Made by a program: the position numbers and the translations under genes. 62,080 bases of DNA from a virus, in the IMG/VR virus record IMGVR_UViG_3300031963_000147, positions 1 through 62,080 of that record; one strand, 5' to 3'. The notes beneath the pieces are model-generated. The model did no database searches and had not been told where the DNA came from. It worked only from the letters and a program-made list of their open reading frames with translations. Below are positions 9,366-52,524 of the stretch, in pieces; position 1 is the stretch's first letter, and each line of letters begins with the position of its first letter.

Positions 9366-9373
9366 CAAATTTA
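9366..9373 (-). promoter_or_regulatory. Bacteroidota-type -7 box TAAATTTG
   Basis: It matches TAnnTTTG exactly on the minus strand, 19 bases before the ATG of the holin-like gene. Its TAA is the stop codon of the giant polyvalent gene, so promoter and coding end overlap. A lysis-gene promoter is inferred. Confidence 0.45.
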
Positions 9374-15300: not shown

Positions 15301-18300
15301 TAAGATTAATGCCTAATGATTTTTCCCATGAATCAGGAACATCTATTCCCACCGCCAAAAGCGGCCCCACACTTCCTGTTCTTGACGCCTCATAAATCGC
15401 GTCGGTAATTGCTCTTTGGCTTTCTGATTGCTTGATAAGTACAACTTCTGGTTTGCCTCCCTTGATTTTTGGTCGTGGCAACTGAAGATTATGAACGGCC
15501 CTGATGTCTGATACTTCAGTGTACATCGTGGCAAGTTCAGTGACGTTGACGAACTTATTTAGCCTTGTTTTACTCTTAATAACTCCGGCAACGTTCTTTT
15601 CCATTGTAGCACTTACAATTCCAAACGTATTTATGAACTGGTCGATGCTATTCATGCCTAGTTTCTTCAGCAAGGACGGGCGAATAAACTGAAATATGTT
15701 GTAAAGCTCGGTAAGCGAGTTTGATATTGGTGTTCCAGAAGCAAAACATACTCCTTTATCGCCACTATGAATATACTGCAGGTAACGGCAGATCATTTTC
15801 AGGTTTGCTGCCTTATTTGATCCCGCAGGATTTCCTAATCCTGAAACATTTCTCATGCCTGTGTGAAAGGCAAGGTTTTTAAACTCTTGGCTCTCATCAA
15901 TAAAGAGCATATCAAGCCCCATATCACCCATGTTGATCTTGGTGGCATACTCTCCTTTGTCTTGCAGTTTGTTGAGCTTAGTGGTCATGTTTTCAATCTT
16001 TTCTTGCAGTGCTTTAAGCTGTTTCTTTGAAAACATGTCTCTTTCCCCACTAGAATTTCCTTTGATTTCAGCAATAGCATCCATGAGTTCTTCAATCTCA
16101 TTCTGAATGTACTTTTCTTCGAAATCAGGAGGCAGAGTGAGTGTGCCCAAATTCTCATGAGAAATAATCACAAGGTCCCAGTCATTGTTTGCTACCTGAG
16201 AAAAGAATCGCTGTCTGTTTGCTGCTGAAAAATCAGTTTCTTTTGGAGCAAGAATTTTCAATCCAGGATATGCTTGCGTAAGCTCTTTGTACATACCTGG
16301 GATTACAGATTTCATAGTACAGATAACAGGCTTATTTACAAGCCCCATCTGCTTCATCTTGATCGCCGCCGATCCAAGAACCAGTGTTTTTCCGGCCCCA
16401 ACAATATGATCGACCATTCCGCCCATCTTCTGAACCAACAGCATCACCGCGTCTTTTTGGTGAGGGCGAAGTTCTATCCCTTGAAGCCCAGGGAACGTCA
16501 GTGTGCTTCCACTGTATTCCTTGATTACGGTCCCGTTAAATACCCTGTTGTAAATCTCGGCAAGCTCTTTTTTGAATGTTGGATCGGTAACAACAAGCTG
16601 TGAAAACGCATCTTGAAGTTTTTCTACCTTATCTCTTACTGATTGCTCCAAAACAGGCAGCGGAGTTTTTGAGTCGTCTCTGCTATTTGTCATGAAGTAA
16701 GGCCCAATTTTTTTAGTGAATGCTGCCTCAATTACGTCGCCCACCTGCTTTTTTGTTCCGTGTTCTCCAAGCGCCTCATATTCTCCGCCGACCACCGAAG
16801 AAACAATATTGTATTTGTCTGTGGCTTTTGAGTATGTGACTTTTACTTTCCCTGAACCGAAAACAACATCCAGAAAGGACTGATAATAATTTACCGGTAT
16901 CCAACCCGCGCCAAGAGTAAATGTGATGTCTTCGGCTGGAATTGGGTCTGGAATAACTTTGGACAGGGCTTCTGCGTTTCGATCATACTTGGAGCTTATC
17001 TTTCTCCATTCATTCGCCTGATCGAGTTTTTCCCGTACGTTTCCAGAAAGGTATTCAGATGCTTCAATTACGCTTCCGTCTGGTGTTTCAAAGACTAAAT
17101 CGCCCATTGCCTTCACTGCTTCTTCATCGCTGGAAAGATCCATGACCTCCCGAACAAATGGAACGTTGACGTGACCAAAGGCATTGATTGAATAAGCAAT
17201 GGCATCCGCAGGATTGTTTGTCCTCTCAAATGCGGGACGATCTGCCCCTGCGGACTTATAGACTACATCAGCAAACTTTCCGTCAGGGCGAATAAGTCCA
17301 AGAACAGCAAACGCGTCTGGGTCTTTCTGAATGATTTGTGAAATAACGGATCTTCCACTAAGTAGTGAAGTGATGTTCTGCACTTTTACCCGCTTCACAA
17401 AGGAATTCAATAAATCAAGTATCTCAACCCTTTGAGCAGAAGCGTCTTCCGACGCCCTGTCCTTTGACAGAATATCAAAATACAGATTTTTCAGATTAAT
17501 GAAATCGTCGAGGGTCTGGCGGTCCTTGTCTGGCGGAAGTCTTGTAATCTCCACAACATTGTGTACGCCCTGCAGTTTGTCGTAATCAATAACCGTAAAA
17601 TACTTGCCACCCTTCTTAATGACACCACCGGAAACCATTCTTCCATCCGGTGTCATCTGCAAAATTTCATCAACCTCTTTTTCCTTGTGCTTATATGGTT
17701 GAATAGGCATTTTAGATGCCAGTTCCTGAAGTTTTGCCGCTACTTGTTCTGGTTCCGGAGCGCCGGTAAGGGTGTATCCCCTGTCCTCGCTGTACAGACC
17801 GCCTGCCAGATACTTTTCTCCAAAAACGTTTTCTTTGTTCTTGGCAAAATATTCGTTGTATTCAATAAATTGTTTTGGTCTGTCCGGCTTGTTATGCGGA
17901 GCAAGTTCTTTTACAATCTTGCTGATTGGATGATCTTCGCCGGATGGCAACCCGATTGGCTCCTGTCTTTTTCTGAGCAGAATAATATCCGTCACAACCT
18001 GTGTGCCGGCATCCGCATTGAAAGCCTGTTCACCAAGCCTAACCGCGCCAACAAATTCGCATGTTTGCAGAATAAGGTCTCTGGTTGACTGGTTTTCTCT
18101 TGTGTCAAGAGTATTTGCTGTTGTGAGGATAGCAATATATCCTCCGGGGCGAACTACATCAATGGCTTTTGCGAAGAAGTATGTATGCAGTTTTTTCTGC
18201 GATGCCTTCCAAAGCCCTCCTTTCTTATCCAAAACTGGATCGTAAATGTCCTGCTTTCCAAAAGGAATGTTCGAAATAAACAGGTCAAACGAATTTGAAG

Positions 18301-21300
18301 GCAATGAAGCGCGTTCAATCGGACTGTTTTTAATCAGAGAATTCGGATATAGATACTTGGACACAAGTGCGCTGACTACATCCATGTCAACCCCAGTAAT
18401 ACGGCTGTTGCTCATGGTTGTTTTAGGCATTCCGCCAATAAAGCGACCACTTCCAACAGAGCCCTCCAATATCCGTCCTCCGGTGAATCCAGCAGCGGTC
18501 ACTCCCTCCCACATTGCCCGGATAATCGGCAAAGAGGTGTAGTACGCACTTCGGGTAGAGGACTTGGCTGTTGCCAGTGGGTTTGTCTTGGTCTTTTTGC
18601 CGATTGAATCCAGAAGCGATATGATCCTGCGGGATTCATCATAAAACTGAAGACTTGATTTATTCCACCTTTCACGATCATCATCCAGAAGTATTTCCGA
18701 AAGCGGACCTAATCCATTGTACTTGGAAAGTGCCTCCTTTTGTTCGTCTGTGGCAAACTGATCTGGATTGTCTAGCAGTGAATCAATTATTTCCAATGCA
18801 GCAATATTGTCTTCATACGCCTGCTTTTTGGAGAACGTTTTGTTCGCTGTCCTTTCCCAGTTTTCCGGATAGACAAAGTTCTGCTGAATGTCGGGGTCTA
18901 GTCTGTCAGGCTGAACAAGCTCTGTATTGCCTGTGCCTGCGCCTCCTGTTCCTGCATTGTCGGCAGGTACATCTCCAGGTATTGTTGATAGAGATCCACC
19001 ATTATTTTCATTCGCTTTTCCGCCTCCTGTGGTGCTACCTCGTTCACCTCCTTGCGTTCCTGCTCCGGCATTGATTCCAGTATCAGAGCCACCGGCCCCT
19101 CTACCGTCTTGATTAATTGTTTCTCCAGACTGGTCATTTTGTTCGGCATTAAATTCATATTCATCCACGACGGATTCTGAATCCATCTGTTTTTTCTGCT
19201 CTGGTGTTGCCCCCGTCATTTTGAATGACATATAGGCCGCTTTCATTGCGGGAATAATAGCTTCTCCCATCCTGGCAACAGCGTCTTCAGCTACCTCTGC
19301 AAATGTCAGTATTCCAAGTTCTGCGTATTTGGCAATGATTCTTACGGCTATTTCAAGCTGCTTGGGATTCAGACCTGCGTTGAGGTTGCCCATTTCATTT
19401 CCGAGCTCTCCCCATAAATCATCAAGGTCTTTGTTCTTGATCTTGCTGATTCGCTCTTGGCGCTTGGTTGGTTTCTCCGCCGGTTTTTCTTGTGGTTTTG
19501 GCATTTTGCCAATAACGACGTTTGGCGCGGGTATCCCTGATTGTTCAACGATGTCCTTAATCACTTCCTGCGGTGTCTTTTCGCCAGAAAGAAGATCCTG
19601 AACGTCTTTTACCTCTTGTGAAGGTGAATTTTTATTTATGTAGTCAACAACATACGGGATGGCCTCTTTAGCAAAAATGGTAGCAAGCTCTTTGGATGTT
19701 GGAGCAGGTGATTTTGGAGCTCCCCATCCATACGGCGCCCCCGTTCCTGATATGTTTATTCTCTGGTTCGGACCTACATACTGATCCCGACCCTTTTTTG
19801 TCCTGTCTTCTACTCGGTAGAAAATCTCACTGAGCGTGTAGTTGTCGTATGACCGGTTGTATTCTGGTTCATACTTAAATGCCGCATACAGGGTAAGAGG
19901 TGTGCCTGGAATAGAAAGTTCAACATACACATCACCACCTGCGGGAGCAATGTTTGCTCGAACTCCATTTTTACCAATTTCCCATCCGGTCATTTGGGCA
20001 ATATCCTTCATAAATGAAGTTATTTCCCGCTTGGCCTTTTTGCCAATTTCGTAGCTGGGTATCTCGTGGTCAATGTCGTCTGTTGTATAAACCTCGGTCA
20101 GCTTTTTGATCTTTTTGCCTACCGCGTTTATCTGCGCCTCTATTTTTTCGAGGGCTTCCCGAACTGTTTCTGGCGTTCTAGCAGCTCCTGCCTCTTTGAT
20201 TGCAGATTCTGCATCACTTTCGACAGTCTCGATAGATCGTTCGTCGATTGCTTCTGATTGTTCTTCATTGTCTTGGGTTTCTTGGGTTTCTTCCTCCCTG
20301 ATCGCTGATTTTACCCGACCATAGGTTTCATTGATAAGGTCTACTGCCTCGTCTCCGATAATCTTGCGGACACCTTTTTCGTTGTCGGCAATTTGTTCCT
20401 GAATTTCCTTTATCGCTGCGTCTGGATTCTCTTTGATTCCTTCTTTCCATGCAGTAGCCTGGATTGACTTCGATGGTGAATCAAGTACGAGCTGCGTGAT
20501 CTTGTCTTTGGGAGAAGCGTTTTTGGATTCTTTGCCGGCATTTAGCGCATTCTGAATATTTGCATTTAATTCATCCAAATGATCGGCAAGCGGAGCAAGT
20601 GCCTTTGGTGATTGGCTTTGTGGGGCCGTAGTCAGTGCTTCTGGCGCATACTTTTTAACGTATTCAGTATATACGCCTTCTACAATACGAGCGATTTTTT
20701 GAGCATCGCTTTTTGATGCATTCGCAGGCAGTATGATTCCAACACCAGCGGCAGTAGTTCTGCCTGCTGTTTTGCCCATGATACCAACATGAATTTCCTT
20801 TCTTCCGTCTGCGTACTGATGAATTCGTTCTTTCACAAACACTCCTGCAGTACCGATTTTGTCCCTTTCTCCACCGCGAGCGTCTACTTCAAGCCCAACG
20901 TCGTTGAAATGCAGTTTAGAATCGTTTACATACGGAACAATTTTAACGTCCTTCGTGTTTATGGGCGCTGGATTTTTATTGCCGCTTTCAATCTGTGCTG
21001 CAGGAACCTCTTCTGCCTGTGCTTCTTCTCCTTGGAATTCTTTTTCACCGGCGTTTGCTACGTCAGAAGTAAGAGCGTCACCAATGGCTCCTTCAAGCCT
21101 GGAAGCAAGGTCAATGAATTGCTGAACAAGCGGATTAATGTTGTCCGGAATGTCTTCTTTGTCAACGATGTTTCCTTTTGAATCAACCAAGTTGAATTCT
21201 TCTCCACTCATATCAACTTCGAACTTGTATCCCAGATTGGAAAGTTCATTGTTGATCTCTGCAAGTCTTCTGCCTATTGGCGATGCAGTTCGGAGAATGT

Positions 21301-24300
21301 CTTCGTTGGTGATCTCGTTGGTAGCAGGCGTAGACTTACCTTCTAAAGCAGCAAGCTCCGCGTCGTATTCGGCGTCGGTTGGTAAAACAACTTCAACATC
21401 AGATGTAAATATTTGCGGAAGCGCAGCATTAACATTGTATTCTCCGTTGGCTCTTTTTTCTGTTATTGCTATGCCTGACGTGTTTTCTTCCCATACGTCG
21501 TTTTCATTTAAAAACAACGGTATCAACTGGTAAGATTCTGTTCCCCTTTTCGTCGTTTTTTTTCTGACTATTAAGGCATCTCCATCCTCGTTTTTAAATA
21601 TTGTTCCTTCTGGTATGCTTTCTAAAAATTCAAATTTTTCTTGCGGCGTTGATTTTCTACTAATTATGTCTTTTCTTCTGCTTTCTATATCCGCCTTTTT
21701 ATCTGCCGTGTCGATTGAATCAACATTACCGGCAGACGTGTCGATTTTTTCGCCTGTTTTCGACGTGTCGGGTGTTTTATTCCCTTCAATCTCCCGTGCA
21801 ACAGCAGAAAACGGATTGAACACCGGCTGCGCGATCATAGAAGGTCCCTGCGGATTCACCGGAGCTTTCCCCTCTTCTACTTCTTCGATCTCGGGAATAT
21901 ATCCTTCCTGAACTTGCTGAATGATCTTTGCCTTTTCTTCGTCGCTTTCTACGCTCTCTACCGGGGTATTCATCAATGCTTCTACATCCGGCTTCTCTTC
22001 CGTATTCTCTGAATCAGTTGCCTGCGGCTTAACCGCCGCTTTTGCAGCCTTTCTCTTCTCGAAAAAGCCCTTGATTCCTTCATTCAGATGATTCAGCATA
22101 GTAGCCGCACCCTTGCCAAATGCGGCAATACGAACCCTTTTTGTAGCTACCTGAGCAACTAAATCAGGATTGGTAAATACTTGCTCAGCATCCGCCGTTG
22201 AAAACAGATACTCGCTTCCGTCCGCATACTTGATTGAGAAGAATTCAGGATCCTTTCCATTAATGAAGTCTGCCGCCTGCTGCTGGTAGTCTTTTGCTTG
22301 TTCTTCGAAGACTTTTGCCAATACCGGATCGTCCGCGTACTGCGCTGCCTTAGCAAGTGCTTCATCTGCCCTGGATGAAATCCATGAATAAATCGAAGCA
22401 TCATTCGGGCTCAACTTCAGAGCTTTTGCCTTTTCCTGATATTTCTCAGCCTGAAGTACGTCGGCAATCATGCCGTCACGCTGCGCCTTGTCGATCTGTC
22501 CAGAAGTAAAAAGGTTGTCAATGGCGGCCTTTGTGAATTTAGACCCCTTATTGAATACTGTGTTGTAGACAAACTGGGTAGATTGGCCCTCAATCACATT
22601 GGAAAGAACGTCTTTGGATGCCTGTGCAGTAATGGCGTTTACCATTTCCTGCTTGTTACCGGTAGAATTTACCTGACCGGCCATCCCAAGAATAGCCACC
22701 GGAGCGATCGGCACAAACGTGTCCTGTGCCTGCTTGATAAAGTCACCGAAATTCATAGGACGCGTCCCAACCTTTCCGTCAGTCATGTCCACCATTTCCC
22801 ATGCGTTTCTGCCTTCGGAAATATTCTTCTCTGCGATGTTCTGCAGGGTTTCCTGAATCAATTCAGTTGAAAGTTCGATACCTCCGCCGACAAGCATACG
22901 TCCGCCAACGGTAGGAACCATTGAAAGACCTTTTGAAATAAACGGAAGACCCTCGAAGGCATACGCCCACATAATATCAAGCTGTGAATCAAAGCTCTTC
23001 TGCGCTGCTTCCTTGGCCTTGGCTACATTTCCGCCGGAGCGTTCAAATGCGTCGTTGTATGCGCGGCCAGCAATATCGGCGGATTCAGCAGTGAATCCAG
23101 CAACCGAAGCGGCAAGCATTTGAACCGAAGCGCCCATTCCAAGTCCGCCGGTTGTCATCGCTGCCGTTGTGCTTGCCAAAATGCTTGGCGTCATTCCTCC
23201 TCCAAGCTGTCCGGTCAGCGTCATCAGGTTTTTCAGATCAAAAAGGTCTGAAACTTTGTCGCTCTTCGGCGTGGCAACCATGTTCTTTTGAGCAAGGTAG
23301 TCACCGTACATTTCCAGTTCAGGAATATCCATGGAAGTAGCAAGTGCCTTCAGGCTTCCTCCAAATCCATTCATAAATGACCTTCCAAGCTGCGCGAATG
23401 GAGCCGTGAGAAGACCGGCTTCAAATGCCTGTCTTTCGGTGGCGTCCATAGATGCCATTCTCTCTTCCGCCGCCTGCTTGTAAGCATCCGAATACTTCTG
23501 TGAAAATTCAGCAGCCTTCTCTGGAGACACTTGGTATTCGGCAAGAAACTTCTCCTCGGCCTGCTTAATGCGTGCATCAGCCTGTTTTTTCAGGGCTTCT
23601 GCCGCTTGCTTGTATTGGTTCTGATACCGGGAATTGATCTCGTTCAGCTTTGTTGTGGCCTGATCGTATAGTGTCGAACTCGCTTTCTGAATTTCCGCGA
23701 TCTTGGCGTCACCTTCATTTTTGATCTGGTCAAATGTCGTTTTGTACTGATCCAACGGAATAGCACCGGCCTGAAATTGCTTGTTCAGCTCTTCCAGTCT
23801 GGCATTGTACTCCGCGTTCAGCGCATTTGCCTGTTGCTGCAGTTGCTCCTTTGCCTTTTTCTGTTGCTCAAATACTGGCAGTGCTTCTGATTCAGCCTGC
23901 TTCTGTATTTGATTAAAAAGAGCGCCGGTGGCGGCATCATATTTCAGCCTCTCCGCTTCGTCGGTAGTGAATTTCGCATCCATGTCGGCATTCACTTCTT
24001 TTTTGAACGCCTTTTCATACGGACTGAAAATTTCTTTTGCCCTCGGCTCGATCATCTTCATGTCTACCGTGGCGATCATGGTGTTGTAAAGCAACTTCTT
24101 GAAGCTGCTGTTTTCACCAAGCCCATACATGGCTGCCTGTCTGGTGGCGTATTCGTCCACAACCTCTGGATTCACAACGACGTGCCCGCTTTTGGACTTC
24201 ATGGTGAATTTGCCGACGTCGTTTCCGATCATGCTCTCAGCAAGTTCGTTGACAATAGGGCCCATCTTCTTTGTGTTGGATTCAGCCCATGTCTTTGCCG

Positions 24301-24907
24301 GCGTAACCAAACGATCAATCTCCTCGTTGGCCTTGCGGATCTGTTCTCTCTGCTCGTTTACGGTAGGCGCCCATGCTCCGGGAACACCGGCATAGGAAAT
24401 AAACCTTTCCACTTCCTTCTGGCCTTTTGCCTCGAAGTTTGTCTTCAGGCTCATAGCGTTACTAGCGCCTATCTGAGCATTTTCGTACTGGTTGGCAAGC
24501 GCCTTAATTTCAGCCTGCTTCTGCTGGTATTGCTGTTCGCTGAATTTCCCCAGTTCATTCCTTCCCTCGGCTTTGTTTCGCGCAACAATCTTGTCCGCAT
24601 GACTAGCAATTTCTTCTCCACTCGGAATAGAAGGCTTTTGCGGCGCGTTTGAACCTTGACCAGACCCCGCCGCGCTGCCTGGTTCCGCCCCCTTTAGCTT
24701 TTCGACAAATGATTCGGGGGTGTGCGTGAATTTGTCCCCGTAGGCGTCTTTCATTACGCCGTATATCTTCTTTTGATATTCCGGATCATTGCTGATCTTT
24801 TCATCAAATGATTCAGGTGTATGGGTGAATTTGTCTCCATACGCTTCTTTCATAATACCATAAAGTTTTTGGCTGTATGGCTGTCCGGTTTCTACCTTTT
24901 TTCCCAT
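9371..24907 (-). CDS. Giant polyvalent protein: adenine methylase, SNF2 helicase and zincin (5,178 aa)
   Basis: One uninterrupted ORF of 5,178 codons, a quarter of the window. Order of parts: two N-terminal repeats (about 12-38 and 45-71, each with AYGDKFTHTPESF); coiled coils; hydrophobic stretches near 490-600 and 728-743, possibly for membrane passage; a long linker; an N6-adenine methylase (GRILEGSVGSGRF, catalytic NIPF at 2213-2216); an SNF2-type helicase (GAGKT with K2840, DESQ box, SGTPISNS, MEQRNGRGIRQGN); an HEAAH zinc peptidase site (H3842-H3846); coiled coils; and a C-terminal domain of the large polyvalent-associated type (DPRSSDFAKIKVGDTRVDPW). DarB-like and other polyvalent proteins are packaged and injected to protect DNA from restriction. 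Two internal-virion-like genes precede it. Anti-restriction is inferred. Confidence 0.9.
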   Translation of the reverse strand: MGKKVETGQPYSQKLYGIMKEAYGDKFTHTPESFDEKISNDPEYQKKIYGVMKDAYGDKFTHTPESFVEKLKGAEPGSAAGSGQGSNAPQKPSIPSGEEIASHADKIVARNKAEGRNELGKFSEQQYQQKQAEIKALANQYENAQIGASNAMSLKTNFEAKGQKEVERFISYAGVPGAWAPTVNEQREQIRKANEEIDRLVTPAKTWAESNTKKMGPIVNELAESMIGNDVGKFTMKSKSGHVVVNPEVVDEYATRQAAMYGLGENSSFKKLLYNTMIATVDMKMIEPRAKEIFSPYEKAFKKEVNADMDAKFTTDEAERLKYDAATGALFNQIQKQAESEALPVFEQQKKAKEQLQQQANALNAEYNARLEELNKQFQAGAIPLDQYKTTFDQIKNEGDAKIAEIQKASSTLYDQATTKLNEINSRYQNQYKQAAEALKKQADARIKQAEEKFLAEYQVSPEKAAEFSQKYSDAYKQAAEERMASMDATERQAFEAGLLTAPFAQLGRSFMNGFGGSLKALATSMDIPELEMYGDYLAQKNMVATPKSDKVSDLFDLKNLMTLTGQLGGGMTPSILASTTAAMTTGGLGMGASVQMLAASVAGFTAESADIAGRAYNDAFERSGGNVAKAKEAAQKSFDSQLDIMWAYAFEGLPFISKGLSMVPTVGGRMLVGGGIELSTELIQETLQNIAEKNISEGRNAWEMVDMTDGKVGTRPMNFGDFIKQAQDTFVPIAPVAILGMAGQVNSTGNKQEMVNAITAQASKDVLSNVIEGQSTQFVYNTVFNKGSKFTKAAIDNLFTSGQIDKAQRDGMIADVLQAEKYQEKAKALKLSPNDASIYSWISSRADEALAKAAQYADDPVLAKVFEEQAKDYQQQAADFINGKDPEFFSIKYADGSEYLFSTADAEQVFTNPDLVAQVATKRVRIAAFGKGAATMLNHLNEGIKGFFEKRKAAKAAVKPQATDSENTEEKPDVEALMNTPVESVESDEEKAKIIQQVQEGYIPEIEEVEEGKAPVNPQGPSMIAQPVFNPFSAVAREIEGNKTPDTSKTGEKIDTSAGNVDSIDTADKKADIESRRKDIISRKSTPQEKFEFLESIPEGTIFKNEDGDALIVRKKTTKRGTESYQLIPLFLNENDVWEENTSGIAITEKRANGEYNVNAALPQIFTSDVEVVLPTDAEYDAELAALEGKSTPATNEITNEDILRTASPIGRRLAEINNELSNLGYKFEVDMSGEEFNLVDSKGNIVDKEDIPDNINPLVQQFIDLASRLEGAIGDALTSDVANAGEKEFQGEEAQAEEVPAAQIESGNKNPAPINTKDVKIVPYVNDSKLHFNDVGLEVDARGGERDKIGTAGVFVKERIHQYADGRKEIHVGIMGKTAGRTTAAGVGIILPANASKSDAQKIARIVEGVYTEYVKKYAPEALTTAPQSQSPKALAPLADHLDELNANIQNALNAGKESKNASPKDKITQLVLDSPSKSIQATAWKEGIKENPDAAIKEIQEQIADNEKGVRKIIGDEAVDLINETYGRVKSAIREEETQETQDNEEQSEAIDERSIETVESDAESAIKEAGAARTPETVREALEKIEAQINAVGKKIKKLTEVYTTDDIDHEIPSYEIGKKAKREITSFMKDIAQMTGWEIGKNGVRANIAPAGGDVYVELSIPGTPLTLYAAFKYEPEYNRSYDNYTLSEIFYRVEDRTKKGRDQYVGPNQRINISGTGAPYGWGAPKSPAPTSKELATIFAKEAIPYVVDYINKNSPSQEVKDVQDLLSGEKTPQEVIKDIVEQSGIPAPNVVIGKMPKPQEKPAEKPTKRQERISKIKNKDLDDLWGELGNEMGNLNAGLNPKQLEIAVRIIAKYAELGILTFAEVAEDAVARMGEAIIPAMKAAYMSFKMTGATPEQKKQMDSESVVDEYEFNAEQNDQSGETINQDGRGAGGSDTGINAGAGTQGGERGSTTGGGKANENNGGSLSTIPGDVPADNAGTGGAGTGNTELVQPDRLDPDIQQNFVYPENWERTANKTFSKKQAYEDNIAALEIIDSLLDNPDQFATDEQKEALSKYNGLGPLSEILLDDDRERWNKSSLQFYDESRRIISLLDSIGKKTKTNPLATAKSSTRSAYYTSLPIIRAMWEGVTAAGFTGGRILEGSVGSGRFIGGMPKTTMSNSRITGVDMDVVSALVSKYLYPNSLIKNSPIERASLPSNSFDLFISNIPFGKQDIYDPVLDKKGGLWKASQKKLHTYFFAKAIDVVRPGGYIAILTTANTLDTRENQSTRDLILQTCEFVGAVRLGEQAFNADAGTQVVTDIILLRKRQEPIGLPSGEDHPISKIVKELAPHNKPDRPKQFIEYNEYFAKNKENVFGEKYLAGGLYSEDRGYTLTGAPEPEQVAAKLQELASKMPIQPYKHKEKEVDEILQMTPDGRMVSGGVIKKGGKYFTVIDYDKLQGVHNVVEITRLPPDKDRQTLDDFINLKNLYFDILSKDRASEDASAQRVEILDLLNSFVKRVKVQNITSLLSGRSVISQIIQKDPDAFAVLGLIRPDGKFADVVYKSAGADRPAFERTNNPADAIAYSINAFGHVNVPFVREVMDLSSDEEAVKAMGDLVFETPDGSVIEASEYLSGNVREKLDQANEWRKISSKYDRNAEALSKVIPDPIPAEDITFTLGAGWIPVNYYQSFLDVVFGSGKVKVTYSKATDKYNIVSSVVGGEYEALGEHGTKKQVGDVIEAAFTKKIGPYFMTNSRDDSKTPLPVLEQSVRDKVEKLQDAFSQLVVTDPTFKKELAEIYNRVFNGTVIKEYSGSTLTFPGLQGIELRPHQKDAVMLLVQKMGGMVDHIVGAGKTLVLGSAAIKMKQMGLVNKPVICTMKSVIPGMYKELTQAYPGLKILAPKETDFSAANRQRFFSQVANNDWDLVIISHENLGTLTLPPDFEEKYIQNEIEELMDAIAEIKGNSSGERDMFSKKQLKALQEKIENMTTKLNKLQDKGEYATKINMGDMGLDMLFIDESQEFKNLAFHTGMRNVSGLGNPAGSNKAANLKMICRYLQYIHSGDKGVCFASGTPISNSLTELYNIFQFIRPSLLKKLGMNSIDQFINTFGIVSATMEKNVAGVIKSKTRLNKFVNVTELATMYTEVSDIRAVHNLQLPRPKIKGGKPEVVLIKQSESQRAITDAIYEASRTGSVGPLLAVGIDVPDSWEKSLGINLTTLGSKASIDPRMVFPKMPEDGGKIQVAADKVYQHYIDSQDIKGTQLIFSDLGVPKDKAAPIGKRVYDEMVERMGEESIAEYSGADAIWKLKDRAQIKEALVTVFEMSPSEAESVIFQAEDTESFSVYAEMKKKLVRMGIPENEIAFIHDAPTKAKKEELFLKVNNGEVRVLIGSTKKMGTGVNVQRRVVAMHHLDAQWRPSDMEQRNGRGIRQGNMNEEVAIYYYGTEETIDAYRFGLLAKKQAGIDSFRAGGRGVREMDFEDGESMTLSEIAAAISGDTRLLDIEKLGGQIRKFENRIESAKRANALRDERIKNEKSSLNSYNRWIDISKEVAEIAKSTINNEGDRKIIEITVDENGKEKQKEITVPNFPVFTATVSGKQFDTKSTEQSKEFYKEIANRIKSLLDRGSIEVVKIGEIGGIEIVTSAPSNDKGYRSLYLEYKGKTIKTIVRSGREFEWWTILRAISSLRENVLEDINYYERVKSGIEKNIAEYEAQPDLVADPKDIEGLKQAKEKRDAILKELEEEEKAREERERNQGQNANPEEDLDDAAAEYQKATGDVATITDEKLRAQIDKVVSALKNVDPGARVVIHNDAESYASALEAMGEDPANADTSAAYDPISGEIHLNVNKIGDTTLFHEAAHPIMAIMIEMNPELLDGLYSQIESDPTLSKFVAFGSRYADPNQQKKEAVIEFLAAVAAGKLDGYKNTPLWDKIKAFFNSLIKFFTGKDTFEINLDNVSELKTFAGKFAEAVRTGTPVANSYQKVVRGGAEYQLSPEEQMMDKVRAAVVGAYNTGYSREDIIRLINEEPTVKQVIESQGTIQDFIDAALTVGPDPVESTKEQPVSGSVDYDFNISGSGDVREASVAGRAMRGMAEDALKQSIEKMGFDQYHVRTAYEADIIAQDFIDSVGMATAFKEAVVSRLVPDDIGAIVIAKAMMNPDMLGDTKAVPDLLRILSERGTNAGRGVNIYKYIYENYDIGFDIEKKFSEYRTASGDSNIPELVEKKWREYEEEMNSLREEIKQLAADKERLDAEVAISIIKENIARETSGRKLPQKEREKISDRIRKAKLARPDVFNSASPAVIAWDTAVEIVATTFDTTQSLAQAVKKGIDYLQNTEWYKSLNPEKKTEAIQKFADYYQEEGVPEPYMTDEGNLVIPNSFLRSLVAEGYETIEDITEQVRLVVDEAFPDYKFSEREVRDAITGYGRTIEMASDDISKALRKAKNIGRIISGLEDVQTGLSPLRSGLQREPTDPDIRLKMKELREAMKDLPVDQEASERQLKTALDAIKTRLTNAIQDIEREIETGMRIEKSKRGVAYDQTVKDLKERLAELRKERDALFGEEMSQSRRINAAIRLLDYAIESTQKALDSNDLKFKSKEKVSTPEIEAKREVLKALQARLKEARKEAGVIEAQRLANAKKNTEKLIQEYERRLREKDYAPKKRTPLVEDTELARKRARLRELKDKVDQDILDASLRNFKNSEARWNAFNEAWNLPKTVRASLEFSPILIQGGPLTMKYALTQQGELLQAIKQLGIAAANESTIKRIQNMVKDLPWYTEAMVAGLELSEFGGDISKAEEGFVFGALGHKIYDVPVGGAAKAIFGERVGERVKELNPMKVTERGASAYLNYLRIREYERGRKMLLARGYTIQNNKREFENLAKVINTYTGRGAVPGSPKYKAALTKGLSYLLFSAKNWSSVIKQTTPIGFIYFLQKTDMESGRPKLSVAQRVALENWLATYGTSAAFVLLFRSLFGGDDDDDKDGVSVSLDPRSSDFAKIKVGDTRVDPWGGRSQMLTFQARMYTQEIVNQYGETVEMGEYNEETGRANTNWLRLTYKLFQGKLHPTAAAILEKGMAEKNKYGQMIDEYGNPVLLKDQLTELFVPMYIASVVENYQEQSTELASVFTLIGSVGVSTNTYGGYTDMLKKETLKLEGKYLYENGGEEVPEGVKNMLQKKAEIIVKKKMRDGERRRRAQ

Positions 24908-45956: not shown

Positions 45957-46633
45957 GCGCTTGCGTCTTTGTAAACGGATTGTGATTTTGCCCTGGATGG
46001 AACCGCCGGAACTTTTGGGATGATCGCCCAAGTTTCTTCCGGGCGAACATTCAGGTATGATTGAGCGACAAAAACTTCCAACTGGTATTCCTCAATGATC
46101 TTGGCCTCCTTCTGCATTAACCTGTCTTTGGCTTCCTCGTACTGCTTTCTTGTCTGCTCGATAAGCTGGCGCAGCTTCAATGAATCTTCCACGGTGAGAT
46201 CCTTGTAATCGTCCGTCTGGGAGAATTCGAGCCATTTATGCAGCTCTGATTCAGCGTGAATCATAATCTGGAAGTCAATCGGGTATTGCAGAGACCTGAA
46301 TACAACCGACTTCTTATTCACCGACGGAACCTTGTTCAACAACATGAATTCTATTGCCGGAGGATACCTGCCCTCTGGTCCTGTTTCTATTCCCAATTCC
46401 TTCATTACCCAGTTTTTCCGCTTACCAACGTGCTTTTGCTGGTCAATAGCCGGTGATCCTGGAGAATACATCAGTATGAGATACTTTAGGACAAACGCCG
46501 GATCGAGACTTTTCCCGTCCGGCGTTTGAAATAGTTCTTTGAACGGAACAAGGTCCGGAAATTCAAATACCTCTTCATCTGATTTAATCAGGTGAATCGG
46601 GTACTTAATTTTTTTGTACAGGTTCTTGTCCAT
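45953..46633 (-). CDS. Hypothetical protein linked to the chaperonin genes (226 aa)
   Basis: The 226-residue product starts MDKNLYKKIKYPIHLI and has a helical, acidic C-terminal coiled coil (LIEQTRKQYEEAKDRLMQKE). It has no recognisable motif. Its start lies inside the 3' end of the GroES gene (29-base overlap), so translation is coupled to the chaperonin cassette. A client or assembly factor is conceivable by position only. Confidence 0.6.
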   Translation of the reverse strand: MDKNLYKKIKYPIHLIKSDEEVFEFPDLVPFKELFQTPDGKSLDPAFVLKYLILMYSPGSPAIDQQKHVGKRKNWVMKELGIETGPEGRYPPAIEFMLLNKVPSVNKKSVVFRSLQYPIDFQIMIHAESELHKWLEFSQTDDYKDLTVEDSLKLRQLIEQTRKQYEEAKDRLMQKEAKIIEEYQLEVFVAQSYLNVRPEETWAIIPKVPAVPSRAKSQSVYKDASA

Positions 46634-46892
46634 TCTCTTCTGTGATGATTCCAATCAGCCCCAATTCATCCTGAAACAGCAGAAAATCTGCTCCGTCGAT
46701 CTGAATTTCCTGTCCTGTTCCCGATGGAAACAGAACGCGGTCTCCTACCTTGTAGTCATTGACTTCCGGACCAACACTGTAAACGTGCCCCAGACTTGGA
46801 GCCTTTTTAGATCCGTCCGGAATGTCAATTCCTATTTCACTGAGTGTTGGCTGAGGTGTGACCAGCACTTTTTTTCCTTTTACCTGTATCAT
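46605..46892 (-). CDS. groES: GroES-like co-chaperonin (Cpn10)
   Basis: The 95-residue protein keeps the Cpn10 order: KGKKVLVTPQPT, a mobile-loop-like segment SEIGIDIPDGSKK, LGHVYSVGPEVNDYKVGDRVLF and an end DELGLIGIITEE. The mobile loop retains the short hydrophobic IGIDI that binds the GroEL apical domain. The length matches bacterial GroES (~97). It starts in an ATGA overlap with groEL, giving a phage groEL-groES operon in reversed order. It would cap the phage-encoded chaperonin. Confidence 0.85.
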   Translation of the reverse strand: MIQVKGKKVLVTPQPTLSEIGIDIPDGSKKAPSLGHVYSVGPEVNDYKVGDRVLFPSGTGQEIQIDGADFLLFQDELGLIGIITEENGQEPVQKN

Positions 46893-48469
46893 TTTTGATC
46901 GTTGTTTACAATAAGGGTGTCTGTGATTAAGAAAAGCGCCGCTACCGATGCTGCATTCTGCAAAGCTACTCGAAGCACTTTTGCTGGGTCAATAATTCCC
47001 AGTGAAGTGAGGTCTGAAACAAACCTTTTGGAGCGCATGTCGTAACCTTCATTCATTGCTGAAGGAAAACGCGGCGTATCTATTCCTCCGTTTGAAGTAT
47101 TCTTCATGTACGGAACCGCAAGAGCATTGTACACGATGTTTCTTCCCATGGATTCATCCACAGACAAATTGTTTTCTGATTGAAGGCATTCACGAAGAAT
47201 GAAGAACGTTGAACCTCCGCCTGGAAGATACCCTTCTTCAAATGCCGCCCGTGTAGCATTGATCGCGTCGTCTACGCGGTCAATTTTTTCGTTCAGTTCA
47301 CTACTGGTCTGTCCGCCGACTTTGAGAACGGCTACCTTACCAGACAAACGGGAAACCCGGTTTCTCATTTGATGATGTGTAGGAGAATCCCCGTCAATTT
47401 CAGCCATTTGCCGGCGAATACCGTTGATTCTTTCATCAGGATTTCCAGCACCTTCAAAAAGAATGGTGTTTTTCTCAGAAACCGTGACCTTTTTGACAAA
47501 TCCAAGTTTCTTGATGTCCTTTTGCGCCCGTTCTCCGGAATCTTTTGAATAGAAGTGTGCACCGGTGTACGCGCAAATATCCATGGCGATTTCCTTTCTC
47601 AAACTACCGTATTCCGGAAGCATCACTACGGATGCACGGATCAATCCTTTCAGGTGGTTGCCCAGAACTGTTGCCAGGGCCTCTCCTTCCATTCCGGAAC
47701 AAAAGAAGATGATTGGCTTGGGCTGCACTTCTTTCTCAGCAGCTTCTTTGATAACCGGCGTCAGGATGGATTCAATGTCAACGAATGAGTTGATGATTGA
47801 ATCTGTGACAAAAACGTAACAGTTTTCGGCTTCAAACGTTTGCTTTTGCTCGTTGTTTACCAGTTGAAAATGGAACCATCCGGACCCTACTTTCATGCCG
47901 GAAACAATTTCGGTGTACGTTTTTGTCGTTTCAGACGGCTCGTAAGCGACTTCTCCGCCCTTACCAACCGACCAGAACGCCTTTCCGATCAATTCCCCAA
48001 GCTCCCGATCATTGTTTGCTGATATGGTGGCAATATCAATCAGTTGTTTTTCCGTTTCGATCTGCATAGATGATTCAGAAATAGCCTTCACCACACGATC
48101 AACCGCATCTTCAATTCCGGACTTGACAAATACCGGTGAAGCACCTTCAGAGATCATCTTAAATCCTTCTTCAATGATGGCGTGTGTCAGCACGCAAGCC
48201 GTTGTGGTTCCGTCTCCGGCCATGTTCACTGTTTTTACGGCTGCTTCTTTAATGATAAGCGCTCCTTGATTTTCCGCGTGGTCCGCAAGCTCGATATGAC
48301 GAGCAACAGTCACCCCGTCTTTTGTGTTTTTGGGAACGCCGGCAGGCATTTCTATTACCACGTTTCTTCCTGCAGCACCAAGCGTGCTACCAACGGCAGT
48401 GGCTACCGTTTTCATTCCGGAGAACAGCTTTTTTTTGGCTTCTACGGAGAACAATACTGTTTTGCTCAT
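46889..48469 (-). CDS. groEL: Phage-encoded GroEL chaperonin (Cpn60)
   Basis: The 526-residue protein aligns by eye with GroEL along its length. It keeps TLGAAGRN at 29-36, the ATP-site DGVTVA at 51-56, AGDGTTTA at 84-91, GGG at 417-419 and RVDDAINATRAA, where D401 corresponds to the catalytic D398 of E. coli GroEL. The apical domain is much more diverged (GSGWFHFQLVNN in place of the usual GYLSPYF region; PEYGSLRKE in place of PGFGDRRK). The Gly-Gly-Met tail is absent. It would fold phage proteins, probably together with the adjacent GroES-type proteins. Confidence 0.94.
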   Translation of the reverse strand: MSKTVLFSVEAKKKLFSGMKTVATAVGSTLGAAGRNVVIEMPAGVPKNTKDGVTVARHIELADHAENQGALIIKEAAVKTVNMAGDGTTTACVLTHAIIEEGFKMISEGASPVFVKSGIEDAVDRVVKAISESSMQIETEKQLIDIATISANNDRELGELIGKAFWSVGKGGEVAYEPSETTKTYTEIVSGMKVGSGWFHFQLVNNEQKQTFEAENCYVFVTDSIINSFVDIESILTPVIKEAAEKEVQPKPIIFFCSGMEGEALATVLGNHLKGLIRASVVMLPEYGSLRKEIAMDICAYTGAHFYSKDSGERAQKDIKKLGFVKKVTVSEKNTILFEGAGNPDERINGIRRQMAEIDGDSPTHHQMRNRVSRLSGKVAVLKVGGQTSSELNEKIDRVDDAINATRAAFEEGYLPGGGSTFFILRECLQSENNLSVDESMGRNIVYNALAVPYMKNTSNGGIDTPRFPSAMNEGYDMRSKRFVSDLTSLGIIDPAKVLRVALQNAASVAALFLITDTLIVNNDQK

Positions 48470-48472
48470 AAT

Positions 48473-49423
48473 TTATCTGATGGTTTTTGATTTACTGAAT
48501 GAAACTGATTCCTCCTCGATGGACAAAAGAGCGTATTCCTTTTTGAAATAGTAATACTCAGTGTCCAGGGTCCTGATCGCGTCGGGTTCCAAAATTATTG
48601 GAGGAATGGCGGGATTTATCACAAGCCTTTCTCCTTTTACAAACCCGTCTGGCGTGCTGCAGGCAGACCGGTAAATGTCAATTCCATGCCTGCGGGCACG
48701 ATCATTTGGAGCCCAAAGCAGTTTTTTGATCTCGTTTTCTTCCTTGGTGCACACCATGTACCCGTTCAGTGGAACCAGACCAGAAGAAGTGTTTTTGCAG
48801 ATCAATTCTTTGTAAGGAATGGTCACATACATGTTTCCGTCTACATCGTAAAAAAATGAATCAAAAATGTAGCTTCCTTCCCGGATTGTGTTGATGACGT
48901 ATTCACTGAAAAACACCTGATCGCCTTTTTTTATGTCAACCCAAGTGGATTTATCGAAATAAGAAGACACGATCATGTCTTTCTCGTTGTATGCGGATCT
49001 TGGTGCTTTTACCACAATCCCTTGGCGAACGGTGACGCGTGCATTTCCTTCGGTAGAATTCAGTTTCCCGATATTCATCCCGTTTTTGGATACTTCTGCG
49101 GTGACGTATGGAATTTTTATCAATACCCACCCGTCGTGCATCAGCATGTGGGATGCTTTACTTGGGTTTCCGCGAAACATCTTGTAGCAAAAGCGCTCAG
49201 GAATAACCGCATGTCTTCCGTTGTCGATCAAATTGAGCGACCCAAGCAAAAACATGACGTGATCTCCATACATGCACTGGCAGTCTCTTCCGGACATCAC
49301 TACACGGCCAAAATGAGGTGTTTTTACCTTGTCTTGCGGAATATAAAGCCCTGATTCACCTATTTCCTGAGTAGGAGCAACTGCAATTACAAGAGAATCT
49401 CTGGATGGATTTACAAAACTCAT
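48473..49423 (-). CDS. Fusion of three GroES-like domains (316 aa)
   Basis: The protein reads as three consecutive Cpn10-like units. Unit 1 (about 1-88) has SLVIAVAPTQ, the mobile-loop-like GESGLYIPQ and FGRVVMSGRDCQCMYGDHVMF. Unit 2 (about 92-212) has DGWVLIKIPYVTAEVSKNGM, VRQGIVVKAP, KKGDQVFF and VTIPYKELIC. Unit 3 (about 214-305) has LVPLNGYMVCTKEE, WAPNDRARRHGIDIY, VKGERLVINP and YFKKEYALLSIEE. Each ends in the strand that closes a Cpn10 barrel. It starts just before groEL (3-base gap), so it probably works on the same chaperonin. Similarity in units 2 and 3 is weaker and is my inference. Confidence 0.68.
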   Translation of the reverse strand: MSFVNPSRDSLVIAVAPTQEIGESGLYIPQDKVKTPHFGRVVMSGRDCQCMYGDHVMFLLGSLNLIDNGRHAVIPERFCYKMFRGNPSKASHMLMHDGWVLIKIPYVTAEVSKNGMNIGKLNSTEGNARVTVRQGIVVKAPRSAYNEKDMIVSSYFDKSTWVDIKKGDQVFFSEYVINTIREGSYIFDSFFYDVDGNMYVTIPYKELICKNTSSGLVPLNGYMVCTKEENEIKKLLWAPNDRARRHGIDIYRSACSTPDGFVKGERLVINPAIPPIILEPDAIRTLDTEYYYFKKEYALLSIEEESVSFSKSKTIR

Positions 49424-50646: not shown

Positions 50647-50748
50647 CCTGCATGCGAACAATATTTTTCAAATATGAACGACGGCCTGAAAAACAAAATT
50701 TCAAACCACATTTTTCAATATCTCGAAACTTTTAAATCCTCAAATACA

Positions 50749-50997
50749 ATGCAAGACAACAACGCCACATCCAGAGCACTGACCTTTGGTGAAAAAGCAG
50801 CCGGAATCACTTTCAATCCCGGAAACAACCCCGAAGTAGACCACATCAAGCGAATGGTTGCTGATTTTATCGACCTCTGTAACGACGCCAGAGCAAATGC
50901 CACGGACCCTGAAAAGTCTAACTACTACTCCAAAGCCATCAACGAAATGGAGAAAGCTCAGATGCTTGCTGTGAAGGCCGCAACCTGGAGCCACTAA
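50749..50997 (+). CDS. Acb2-like cyclic-oligonucleotide sponge (anti-CBASS)
   Basis: The 82-residue product reads MQDNNATSRALTFGEKAAG..., then FNPGNNPEVDHIKRMVADF, and ends EMEKAQMLAVKAATWSH. This matches by eye the Acb2/Tad1-type small helical family (short 'LTFGEKA.G..FNP', 'V..IK...AD.ID.CN', 'E.AQM.AVKA..W'). Acb2 assembles as a hexamer and sequesters cyclic di- and trinucleotides, blocking CBASS effectors. Binding here is inferred from the family. An upstream ATG at 50674 would add 25 residues that look unrelated, so 50749 is preferred. It sits two genes before another nucleotide-sponge-type gene. Confidence 0.72.
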   Translation: MQDNNATSRALTFGEKAAGITFNPGNNPEVDHIKRMVADFIDLCNDARANATDPEKSNYYSKAINEMEKAQMLAVKAATWSH

Positions 50998-51075: not shown

Positions 51076-51348
51076 ATGAAAAAAGAAGGCTCAATCCAAA
51101 TTCACGACGCAAAGAAGTCAAAGAAAAACCCAAACGCCATGTACGAAGTAAAGTGTTTGGCCCCGAACAGCGAACCTCTTCAGGACGGAGAAACGGTCAA
51201 CGATGAAAAGGCCGTAAGAACTCACATCAAGTCTATGGCCGCCCTTTGGAAAACTCCGGACATCAGTCTGCTGAACATCATTGACTTCACCAAAGGTCAA
51301 AAGTTCTGCAAGCCAGGAGCAAGAAGAATTGCCAAACCAGCAAAATAA
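51076..51348 (+). CDS. Hypothetical protein in the anti-signal operon (90 aa)
   Basis: A 90-residue, basic protein (IHDAKKSKKNPNAMYEVK) with a helical middle and a Lys/Arg C-terminus. I do not recognise a family. Its ATG follows an AAATACCCAACATCAACATG leader that is repeated before two later genes of the same cluster. Co-expression with the Acb2-like and RyR-Tad2 genes suggests a counter-defence or early-takeover role, inferred from context only. Confidence 0.6.
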   Translation: MKKEGSIQIHDAKKSKKNPNAMYEVKCLAPNSEPLQDGETVNDEKAVRTHIKSMAALWKTPDISLLNIIDFTKGQKFCKPGARRIAKPAK

Positions 51349-51354
51349 CCGGCC

Positions 51355-51849
51355 ATGAACATATTCAAAAAGAAAAAGACCGAGGCAAACACAAAGCCGT
51401 TGGTCAAAAGGCTCATTCCAGAATTGGAAGGCTTAGGCAACATGTCCGCCGAAGAGCAAAGAAAAGTCTACCATCGTATCACAAACGATTTCCAGACCAT
51501 TCAAATACTCAACCGGCTCAACCGGCAAAAGGATGACTTCATGGGGCAAATAGCCAACCTGGAAAGGATCCTCAACCAAAAAGCCGGCTCAGAAGATGCG
51601 CTTCGGGCGGAAATTGAAGCCCTAAAAGCTGATCTCGACACCGAAAAAACTGTCAAAGCCGCAATTCAGTCAGAACACAGAGACTTGATTAAGTTCCTTG
51701 AAGAAAAAAACGGCGAGATACGAAGGCTTCAACGCTCTTGTGAAAGACTGAGCGAAACACCCAAAACCCAATCGCTCAGCGCAGAACTCAACGGAGCAAA
51801 AATCAAAATTGAGGTCCCCGCGCAAAACAATCAACCATCAATCTCTTAA
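51355..51849 (+). CDS. Coiled-coil hypothetical protein (164 aa)
   Basis: Residues ~55-135 form a strong heptad-repeat coiled coil (DALRAEIEALKADLDTEK and neighbouring Lys/Glu blocks). The N-terminus is basic (FKKKKTEANTKPLVKR), and the C-terminus is polar and disordered. No enzyme motif is visible. It may be an oligomerisation or scaffold protein. It starts 6 bases after the previous stop. Confidence 0.65.
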   Translation: MNIFKKKKTEANTKPLVKRLIPELEGLGNMSAEEQRKVYHRITNDFQTIQILNRLNRQKDDFMGQIANLERILNQKAGSEDALRAEIEALKADLDTEKTVKAAIQSEHRDLIKFLEEKNGEIRRLQRSCERLSETPKTQSLSAELNGAKIKIEVPAQNNQPSIS

Positions 51850-51864
51850 TACCCAAGAATCAAA

Positions 51865-52524
51865 ATGACAGCAAGAGCCCCAGAACAAAGCGAAATAATC
51901 GCTCGAATCTGCCACCAAACCAACAAGGCATGGTGTGAAGCAAATGGAGATTTTACCCAAAAAGACTGGGAAAATGCCGAACAATGGCAACGAGACAGCG
52001 CCATTAAAGGCGTTGAATTCAGAATCCAAAACCCAGATTCCGGACCAGACGCTCAACACAACGCCTGGATGAAGGAAAAAACAGAACAGGGATGGATATT
52101 CGGAGAAACAAAAGACGCCGAAGCAAAAACTCACCCGTGCATTATCCCATACGAGCAGCTCCCCGAATTCCAAAGAAAAAAAGACGCCCTCTTCTGTGCC
52201 ATCGTAGACGCATTGAAATTTGAAATCAAAAGCCCCAAAAACAAAAACTTTGGAGAAGCACTCAAAGCTATTCAATCAGGAAAACGAATCGCCAGAGAAG
52301 GATGGAATGGAAAAGGAATGTTCGCCGTACTCTCTCCCGGAAAAAAGGACAACCCAAGTGAAAACTTCTGGAACGAGCACCTGAAAAAATATGCTCAGCT
52401 CACAGGAGGAACAATGACCGTCCGACCAGCATTTATGCTCAAAACAGCGCAGGAAGATGTCGCATATTGGACGCCATCAACAAGTGACATCCTCGCCGAA
52501 GACTGGATCATCCTGGAAGATTAA
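51865..52524 (+). CDS. RyR domain fused to a Tad2 (DUF2829) domain
   Basis: Two domains are visible. Residues ~10-115 are an RyR (ryanodine-receptor-type) domain: ICHQTNKAWCEANGD, HNAWMKEKTEQGWIFG, then THPCIIPYEQLPEFQRKKD. Residues ~128-219 are DUF2829, the Tad2 family: NFGEALKAIQSGKRIAREGW, WNGKGM, and SDILAEDW at the end. Tad2 proteins bind the TIR-made signal gcADPR and shut off Thoeris; some bind other nucleotides. The RyR part may bind a second ligand, but that is inference. It is cytosolic, with no signal or membrane segment. A terminator follows. Tad2 is normally a short stand-alone protein, so the fusion is notable. Confidence 0.88.
   Translation: MTARAPEQSEIIARICHQTNKAWCEANGDFTQKDWENAEQWQRDSAIKGVEFRIQNPDSGPDAQHNAWMKEKTEQGWIFGETKDAEAKTHPCIIPYEQLPEFQRKKDALFCAIVDALKFEIKSPKNKNFGEALKAIQSGKRIAREGWNGKGMFAVLSPGKKDNPSENFWNEHLKKYAQLTGGTMTVRPAFMLKTAQEDVAYWTPSTSDILAEDWIILED

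Follow-up and report, generated by a model that had tools for sequence, protein, structure and literature searches.

A rare phage protein joining RyR and Tad2 domains, a candidate composite anti-Thoeris protein

Introduction

One open reading frame of an IMG/VR virus record (IMGVR_UViG_3300031963_000147) appears to join two domains, RyR and Tad2, and raises the question of whether a single phage protein can take up more than one Thoeris signal. The window analyzed here is the entire record of 62,080 bases. Phage RyR domains were reported to degrade or sequester 2'cADPR and 3'cADPR, shielding phages from Thoeris (PMC13232231). The mycobacteriophage protein RyDEP, a member of PF02026, is a glycosidase that opens both isomers and defeats Thoeris (PMC13232231, a preprint of May 2026); its residues H75 and D117 are catalytic, W78 and H100 contact the ligand, and Q54 was among the residues mutated in the active-site panel (PMC13232231). 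Eight other phage RyR domains were tested, of which six bound signals, two bound neither isomer, and none hydrolyzed them (PMC13232231). The ligand is His-ADPR for MoTad2 (ModTad2) and gcADPR for SPO1 Tad2 (PMC13299392). Some Tad2 proteins bind cyclic dinucleotides, and long insertions have been linked to such binding (PMC12043709).

Domains and predicted structure of the fusion protein

The gene was recovered with exactly the coordinates, strand, and frame of the first-pass annotation, which had also assigned residues 10–115 to RyR and residues 128–219 to Tad2 (DUF2829); both assignments were borne out, by matches far stronger than chance would give (Table 1). PF02026 matched with 45.1 bits (E = 1.3e-11, curated cut-off 27.4, core residues 64–108), and PF11195 matched with 81.9 bits (E = 5e-23, cut-off 25) over residues 128–216 and positions 2–72 of the 73 in the profile. 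RyR families of PHROG span residues 8–148 and 11–126, and its Tad2 families span about 118–218; together with RyR homologues, the PHROG profiles widen the RyR region to about residues 8–118. An NCBIfam search gave no match. The PDB sequences matched were ModTad2 (E = 2.2e-20 to 2.2e-21), SPO1 Tad2, SptTad2, animal RyR, and the phage protein RyDEP (35tm, E = 3.5e-11).

Table 1. Positions of the fusion gene, its domains and key codons, and the genes upstream of it in the window
Feature	Residues	Position	Strand	Basis or remark
Acb2/Tad1-hairpin gene		50674..50997	+	PF24729, 27.5 bits against a cut-off of 27 (marginal)
90-aa ORF, function unassigned		51076..51348	+	No Pfam or PHROG match, no relative in the fetched loci
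164-aa coiled-coil-like ORF		51355..51849	+	Stops 15 bases before the fusion gene
RyR-Tad2 fusion gene	219 aa	51865..52524	+	Open frame, ATG start, 219 codons and a stop
RyR (RyDEP-type) domain	about 10-118	51892..52218	+	PF02026, PHROGs, 35tm match, model
H65 codon (RyDEP catalytic H75)	65	52057..52059	+	Alignment with Aegeus gp81 (near-identical to 35tm)
W68 codon (RyDEP adenine-stacking W78)	68	52066..52068	+	Alignment with Aegeus gp81
H90 codon (RyDEP phosphate-binding H100)	90	52132..52134	+	Alignment with Aegeus gp81
D107 codon (RyDEP catalytic D117)	107	52183..52185	+	Alignment with Aegeus gp81
Linker	119-127	52219..52245	+	No stop, no internal ATG
Tad2 domain	128-219	52246..52521	+	PF11195, PDB matches; insertion helix 171-179

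The AlphaFold2 model was computed from a checked 50-row alignment of relatives; a 95-sequence MAFFT alignment was dropped, as it overlaid Tad2 rows on RyR. The model contains two well-formed domains with a short linker, and both halves are confident (mean pLDDT 93.1), with a block of lower pLDDT at residues 121–130 around the linker. The relative placement of the halves is uncertain, because the pTM is 0.66. Four helices (residues 8–26, 40–55, 61–74, and 101–117) form the RyR half, for which Foldseek retrieved 3nrt, 6uag, and 6uhi, including bacterial and human RyR domains. The best PDB match of the Tad2 half was SptTad2 with cGG (8wjd, E = 4.5e-8), beside ModTad2 with hisADPR (9eib, E = 5.6e-8, 48% identity), HgmTad2 with 1',2'-cADPR, and SPO1 Tad2 with gcADPR. 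The Tad2 fold is present, and the integrity of its pocket was judged by this fold match and by residue conservation. Among the matches listed from predicted viral structures, none exceeded a TM of 0.51 by query length, which is expected because each match spans one half; the best was the Sulfitobacter phage RyR protein M4PQN8.

The RyR half is probably a sponge

All four ligand-binding or catalytic residues of RyDEP are kept in the fusion protein with a constant offset of ten (Table 1). Their columns are invariant across 78 RyR proteins, and they therefore indicate family membership and say nothing on hydrolysis. Identity of the RyR half is about 23% to RyDEP and 45% to an RyR from a Ruegeria phage, the type that was assayed as a sponge and possibly the very protein. 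The first-pass annotation had supposed that RyR binds a nucleotide or related ligand, and the published binding of 2'cADPR and 3'cADPR (PMC13232231) agrees with this at the family level. As two of the eight published homologues bound neither signal, membership is no guarantee of binding.

The RyR half could instead be an active 2'/3'cADPR glycosidase as in RyDEP, with Tad2 raising the local signal concentration or handling signals that cannot be cut. The catalytic pair H75/D117 is kept as H65/D107, which speaks for such an enzyme; the same pair is nevertheless invariant among the 78 proteins, while none of the eight tested homologues showed hydrolysis. RyDEP Q54 is replaced by A46 in the fusion protein and by A, S, or I in other relatives (the alignment is less sure there), and the RyDEP-type Aegeus gp81 forms a distant, very long outlying branch in the RyR tree; these two observations lean toward a sponge. 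Aegeus gp81 is flanked on one side by a phosphoribosyl-pyrophosphate transferase and on the other by a nicotinate ribosyltransferase, as expected for NARP1, whereas phmmer searches for the NARP1 operon genes (Adps and Namat) with Aegeus gp80 and gp82 retrieved nothing in the window, a record that may be a fragment. We consider a cleaving RyR half unlikely, and this half is probably a sponge and not a glycosidase.

Other RyR proteins showed features of their own. One of the 78 RyR ORFs also matches the T7 gp5.9 RecBCD-inhibitor family (E = 1.7e-13). RyR lies near a PnuC-like nicotinamide riboside transporter in Arthrobacter phage GantcherGoblin (L014, 586–1426) and between two NARP1-like genes in Mycobacterium phage Aegeus (L009, 1952–4721), which is in line with an NAD-related role. 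The RyR proteins of Pseudomonas phage vB_Pae_BR228a (L007, 3989–4861) and 11 relatives are annotated as alanyl-tRNA synthetase; Pfam finds only RyR in them, and the annotation is probably erroneous.

The Tad2 half and its candidate ligands

The Tad2 half agrees with the Tad2 alignment at each of its 16 invariant columns, with the core motifs FGxA, RxGWNGxxM, and WxxSxxDxxAxDW. It is about 48–52% identical to ModTad2, about 36–39% to SptTad2, and about 33–39% to SPO1 Tad2, and its longer insertion with the helix at residues 171–179 resembles viral relatives and SptTad2. The first-pass annotation had named gcADPR as the signal sequestered by Tad2. This ligand stands for SPO1 Tad2; for the fusion protein it is less certain, since the closest solved relative, ModTad2, holds His-ADPR and the insertion is like that of SptTad2 solved with cGG.

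A target outside Thoeris, such as the cyclic dinucleotides of CBASS or a host protein to be regulated, would suit this insertion, the cyclic dinucleotide binding of some Tad2 proteins (PMC12043709), and the Acb2-family gene in the neighborhood. The ligands of RyR and ModTad2 have so far all been ADP-ribose derivatives (PMC13232231, PMC13299392), however, and we regard such an action as very unlikely.

It is also conceivable that one half alone binds a signal, while the other serves dimerization or stability or is decaying. The two RyR homologues that bound neither cADPR isomer (PMC13232231) illustrate this case. The conservation of the key RyR residues together with all 16 invariant Tad2 columns, and the re-fusion of both families in a second contig (see below), favor two working halves, and a protein with a single binding half appears quite unlikely.

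The earlier statement that Tad2 normally occurs alone was too strong: about half of the 79 viral Tad2 ORFs sampled carry long extra N-terminal regions (38 such ORFs were selected), hardly ever RyR and mostly without a Pfam match. By eye, Acidovorax phage AP1 (L197, 1983–2483) and Pectobacterium phage Nepra (L011, 379–930) share a similar N-terminal YLVEY...WSP...F, which is followed by Tad2 in one and by RyR in the other.

The fusion is very rare and probably arose twice

A survey of how often the fusion occurs, proposed in the first-pass annotation, found it to be very rare. Motif and profile scans of 2.9 million IMG/VR contigs revealed one other RyR-Tad2 fusion, L175 (IMGVR_UViG_3300033076_000347). 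The strict DNA motif for the fusion returned nothing in IMG/VR, and relaxed motifs returned L175 and the gene pair of L179. A search with the full protein matched 585 of 50,697 named phage records, in none of which RyR and Tad2 are joined; coverage reached at least 80% in 12 records, all with Hollowayvirus-type proteins. The fusion was found in none of 262 plasmids, nor in one scan of bacterial genomes, and window positions 40001–62000 had no DNA match among named phages. Because these searches pick up only exact motifs or clearly similar sequences, the counts are lower bounds, and records of the window's own genome may be absent from the results.

Several candidates were rejected. L199, the sole result of a motif with a longer linker, is a Tad2 gene in which the second motif matched by chance. 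Of the Hollowayvirus proteins of Pseudomonas phages (81% of the query covered), the one examined has RyR and no Tad2 match. Acidovorax phage AP1 (79% of L175 covered) carries Tad2 with a different N-terminal domain, and the bacterial-genome match L181 (Pacificibacter) was a false positive in which neither domain was found.

The L175 protein is 46–48% identical overall to the window fusion and shares its domain order, short linker, and upstream hairpin gene; it differs in that its Tad2 half belongs to another clade and that an in-frame ATG is kept exactly at the Tad2 start. This ATG would fit a fusion that does not exist in the cell, with Tad2 made separately from an internal start or with neighboring genes joined by a sequencing or assembly error, as would the TTG codon at residue 117 in the window and the occurrence of RyR and Tad2 as separate adjoining genes in other phages. 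In the window, nevertheless, the linker contains no stop, and after M69 the next ATG is that of M152, which already belongs to the Tad2 core; L175 is a second contig with the same order and a similarly short linker. An artefact or separate translation is, in our judgment, very improbable.

In the Tad2 tree, the window half groups with the standalone or differently extended Tad2 proteins of L002, L003, L004, and L019 (support 100/91). The L175 half lies in another clade, and a tree uniting both halves was rejected (AU p = 0.002); thus, the fusion probably arose twice, which is the simplest reading of these phylogenies. A single fusion followed by replacement of Tad2 is the alternative to two events. 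In a quick tree of modest support, the RyR halves of both fusions share a broader clade with numerous standalone proteins. The terminases of L104 (nearest RyR) and L019 (nearest Tad2) are related to that of the window at about 30% identity, and no terminase related to it was found in the L175 record.

Clustering with sponge-family genes

The window fusion lies downstream of an Acb2/Tad1-hairpin gene (Table 1), whose product is related to that of the hairpin gene upstream of the L175 fusion (1219–1482; PF24729, 32.8 bits) and had no sequence match in the PDB. RyR and Tad2 are also encoded by consecutive genes in L117–L120 and L166 and by overlapping or abutting genes in L179 (three contig groups). 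When 36 RyR-encoding records were searched whole, Tad2 was found in five (three lineages), always fused to or adjoining RyR. A rough estimate from phage prevalence gave 0.06 RyR-plus-Tad2 loci expected among 80 and P of about 3e-5 for three, a value that is indicative only because the sample is biased toward relatives of the query.

RyR was also fused to the Acb2/Tad1 hairpin (PF24729), above the cut-off in Sulfitobacter phage phiCB2047-B (L012, 571–1137), L121 (2450–3112), and L130 (2480–3085) and below it in L139 (2480–3112). Judged by their domain content, these proteins are a second kind of composite, putatively signal-capturing protein. Hairpin-like genes adjoin RyR in L126, L132, L153, and L170 and adjoin Tad2 in L015, L032, and L044, some of their scores resting solely on a small home-made profile; this arrangement suggests clusters of sponge genes.

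Elsewhere on the minus strand of the window, positions 46605–49423 encode phage chaperonins, namely GroEL (46889–48469), a long GroES-like protein (48473–49423), and a short one recognized by eye (46605–46892); the closest Tad2 gene (L019) likewise adjoins a GroEL gene. A single ORF of 5178 aa (9371–24907, minus strand) contains helicase- and methyltransferase-like stretches by eye and is possibly a giant injected protein.

Discussion

We favor the reading, with a probability of roughly 0.6, that the fusion protein is a composite two-pocket anti-Thoeris protein, in which RyR and Tad2 each take up a signal. The RyR module would take up 2'cADPR/3'cADPR, most likely as a sponge, and the Tad2 module would capture another signal made by TIR proteins (His-ADPR or gcADPR), its insertion perhaps adding the capture of a cyclic dinucleotide. 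With the signals kept from their effectors, the phage would escape abortive infection triggered by more than one Thoeris type. The analysis establishes the two domains with their folds and conserved ligand residues, and the rarity, recurrence, and clustering of the fusion; for the fusion protein itself, we infer the ligands, the choice between sequestration and hydrolysis, the assembly state, and the anti-Thoeris effect. The only moderate identity to the tested proteins, like the two RyR homologues without binding, counts against the two-pocket reading. The first-pass proposal of a two-ligand counter-defense protein is plausible; its other suggestion, a ligand-tuned sponge, found no specific support, and two parallel pockets are simpler.

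A doubtful extension is that phages join signal-capture domains in varying pairs (RyR-Tad2 and RyR-hairpin) and that single proteins bind three signal classes, countering Thoeris I, II, and VI and CBASS together. Under this extension, RyR would hold cADPR isomers in its pocket, while Tad2 would hold His-ADPR or gcADPR in its own pocket and a cyclic dinucleotide at its insertion.

The fusion unites in a single chain two anti-Thoeris families that had been discovered separately, and it leads to the prediction that phages encounter hosts using more than one type of Thoeris signal. That RyR has repeatedly been fused to, or paired with, Tad2 and the hairpin is independent genomic support for a counter-signaling role of phage RyR, and inspecting the fusion partners of known sponge domains offers a route to new ones.

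Comparison with known systems

The RyR-Tad2 combination was not described in the searchable literature, which covered few subscription journals, and the text of the preprint PMC13232231 mentions neither Tad2 nor such a fusion. RyDEP (DyoEdafos gp78, PDB 35tm) and the sponge-type homologues share PF02026, the four-helix fold, and H75/W78/H100/D117 with the fusion protein, which differs from RyDEP in its low identity, the lack of conservation at Q54, the added Tad2 domain, and the lack of detected NARP1 neighbors. The closest solved Tad2 is ModTad2 of a Myroides odoratus prophage (9eib with hisADPR, 8v3e apo), which is standalone, shorter, and without the insertion helix. SptTad2 (8wjd with cGG) and HgmTad2/AcrIIA7 (8kbj and 8kbk) have the Tad2 fold with a long insertion, as in the fusion protein, although the SptTad2 chain has no RyR domain. 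SPO1 Tad2 (gp34.65; 8smf and 8smg) shares the fold and is an anti-Thoeris sponge; unlike the RyR-Tad2 fusion, it is standalone and binds gcADPR. Functional Tad2 is tetrameric and functional RyDEP dimeric, two assemblies that may or may not be compatible within one chain, which weighs against the two-pocket reading. Each module, with its anti-Thoeris role, is already known from these systems, and what is new is their joining in one protein.
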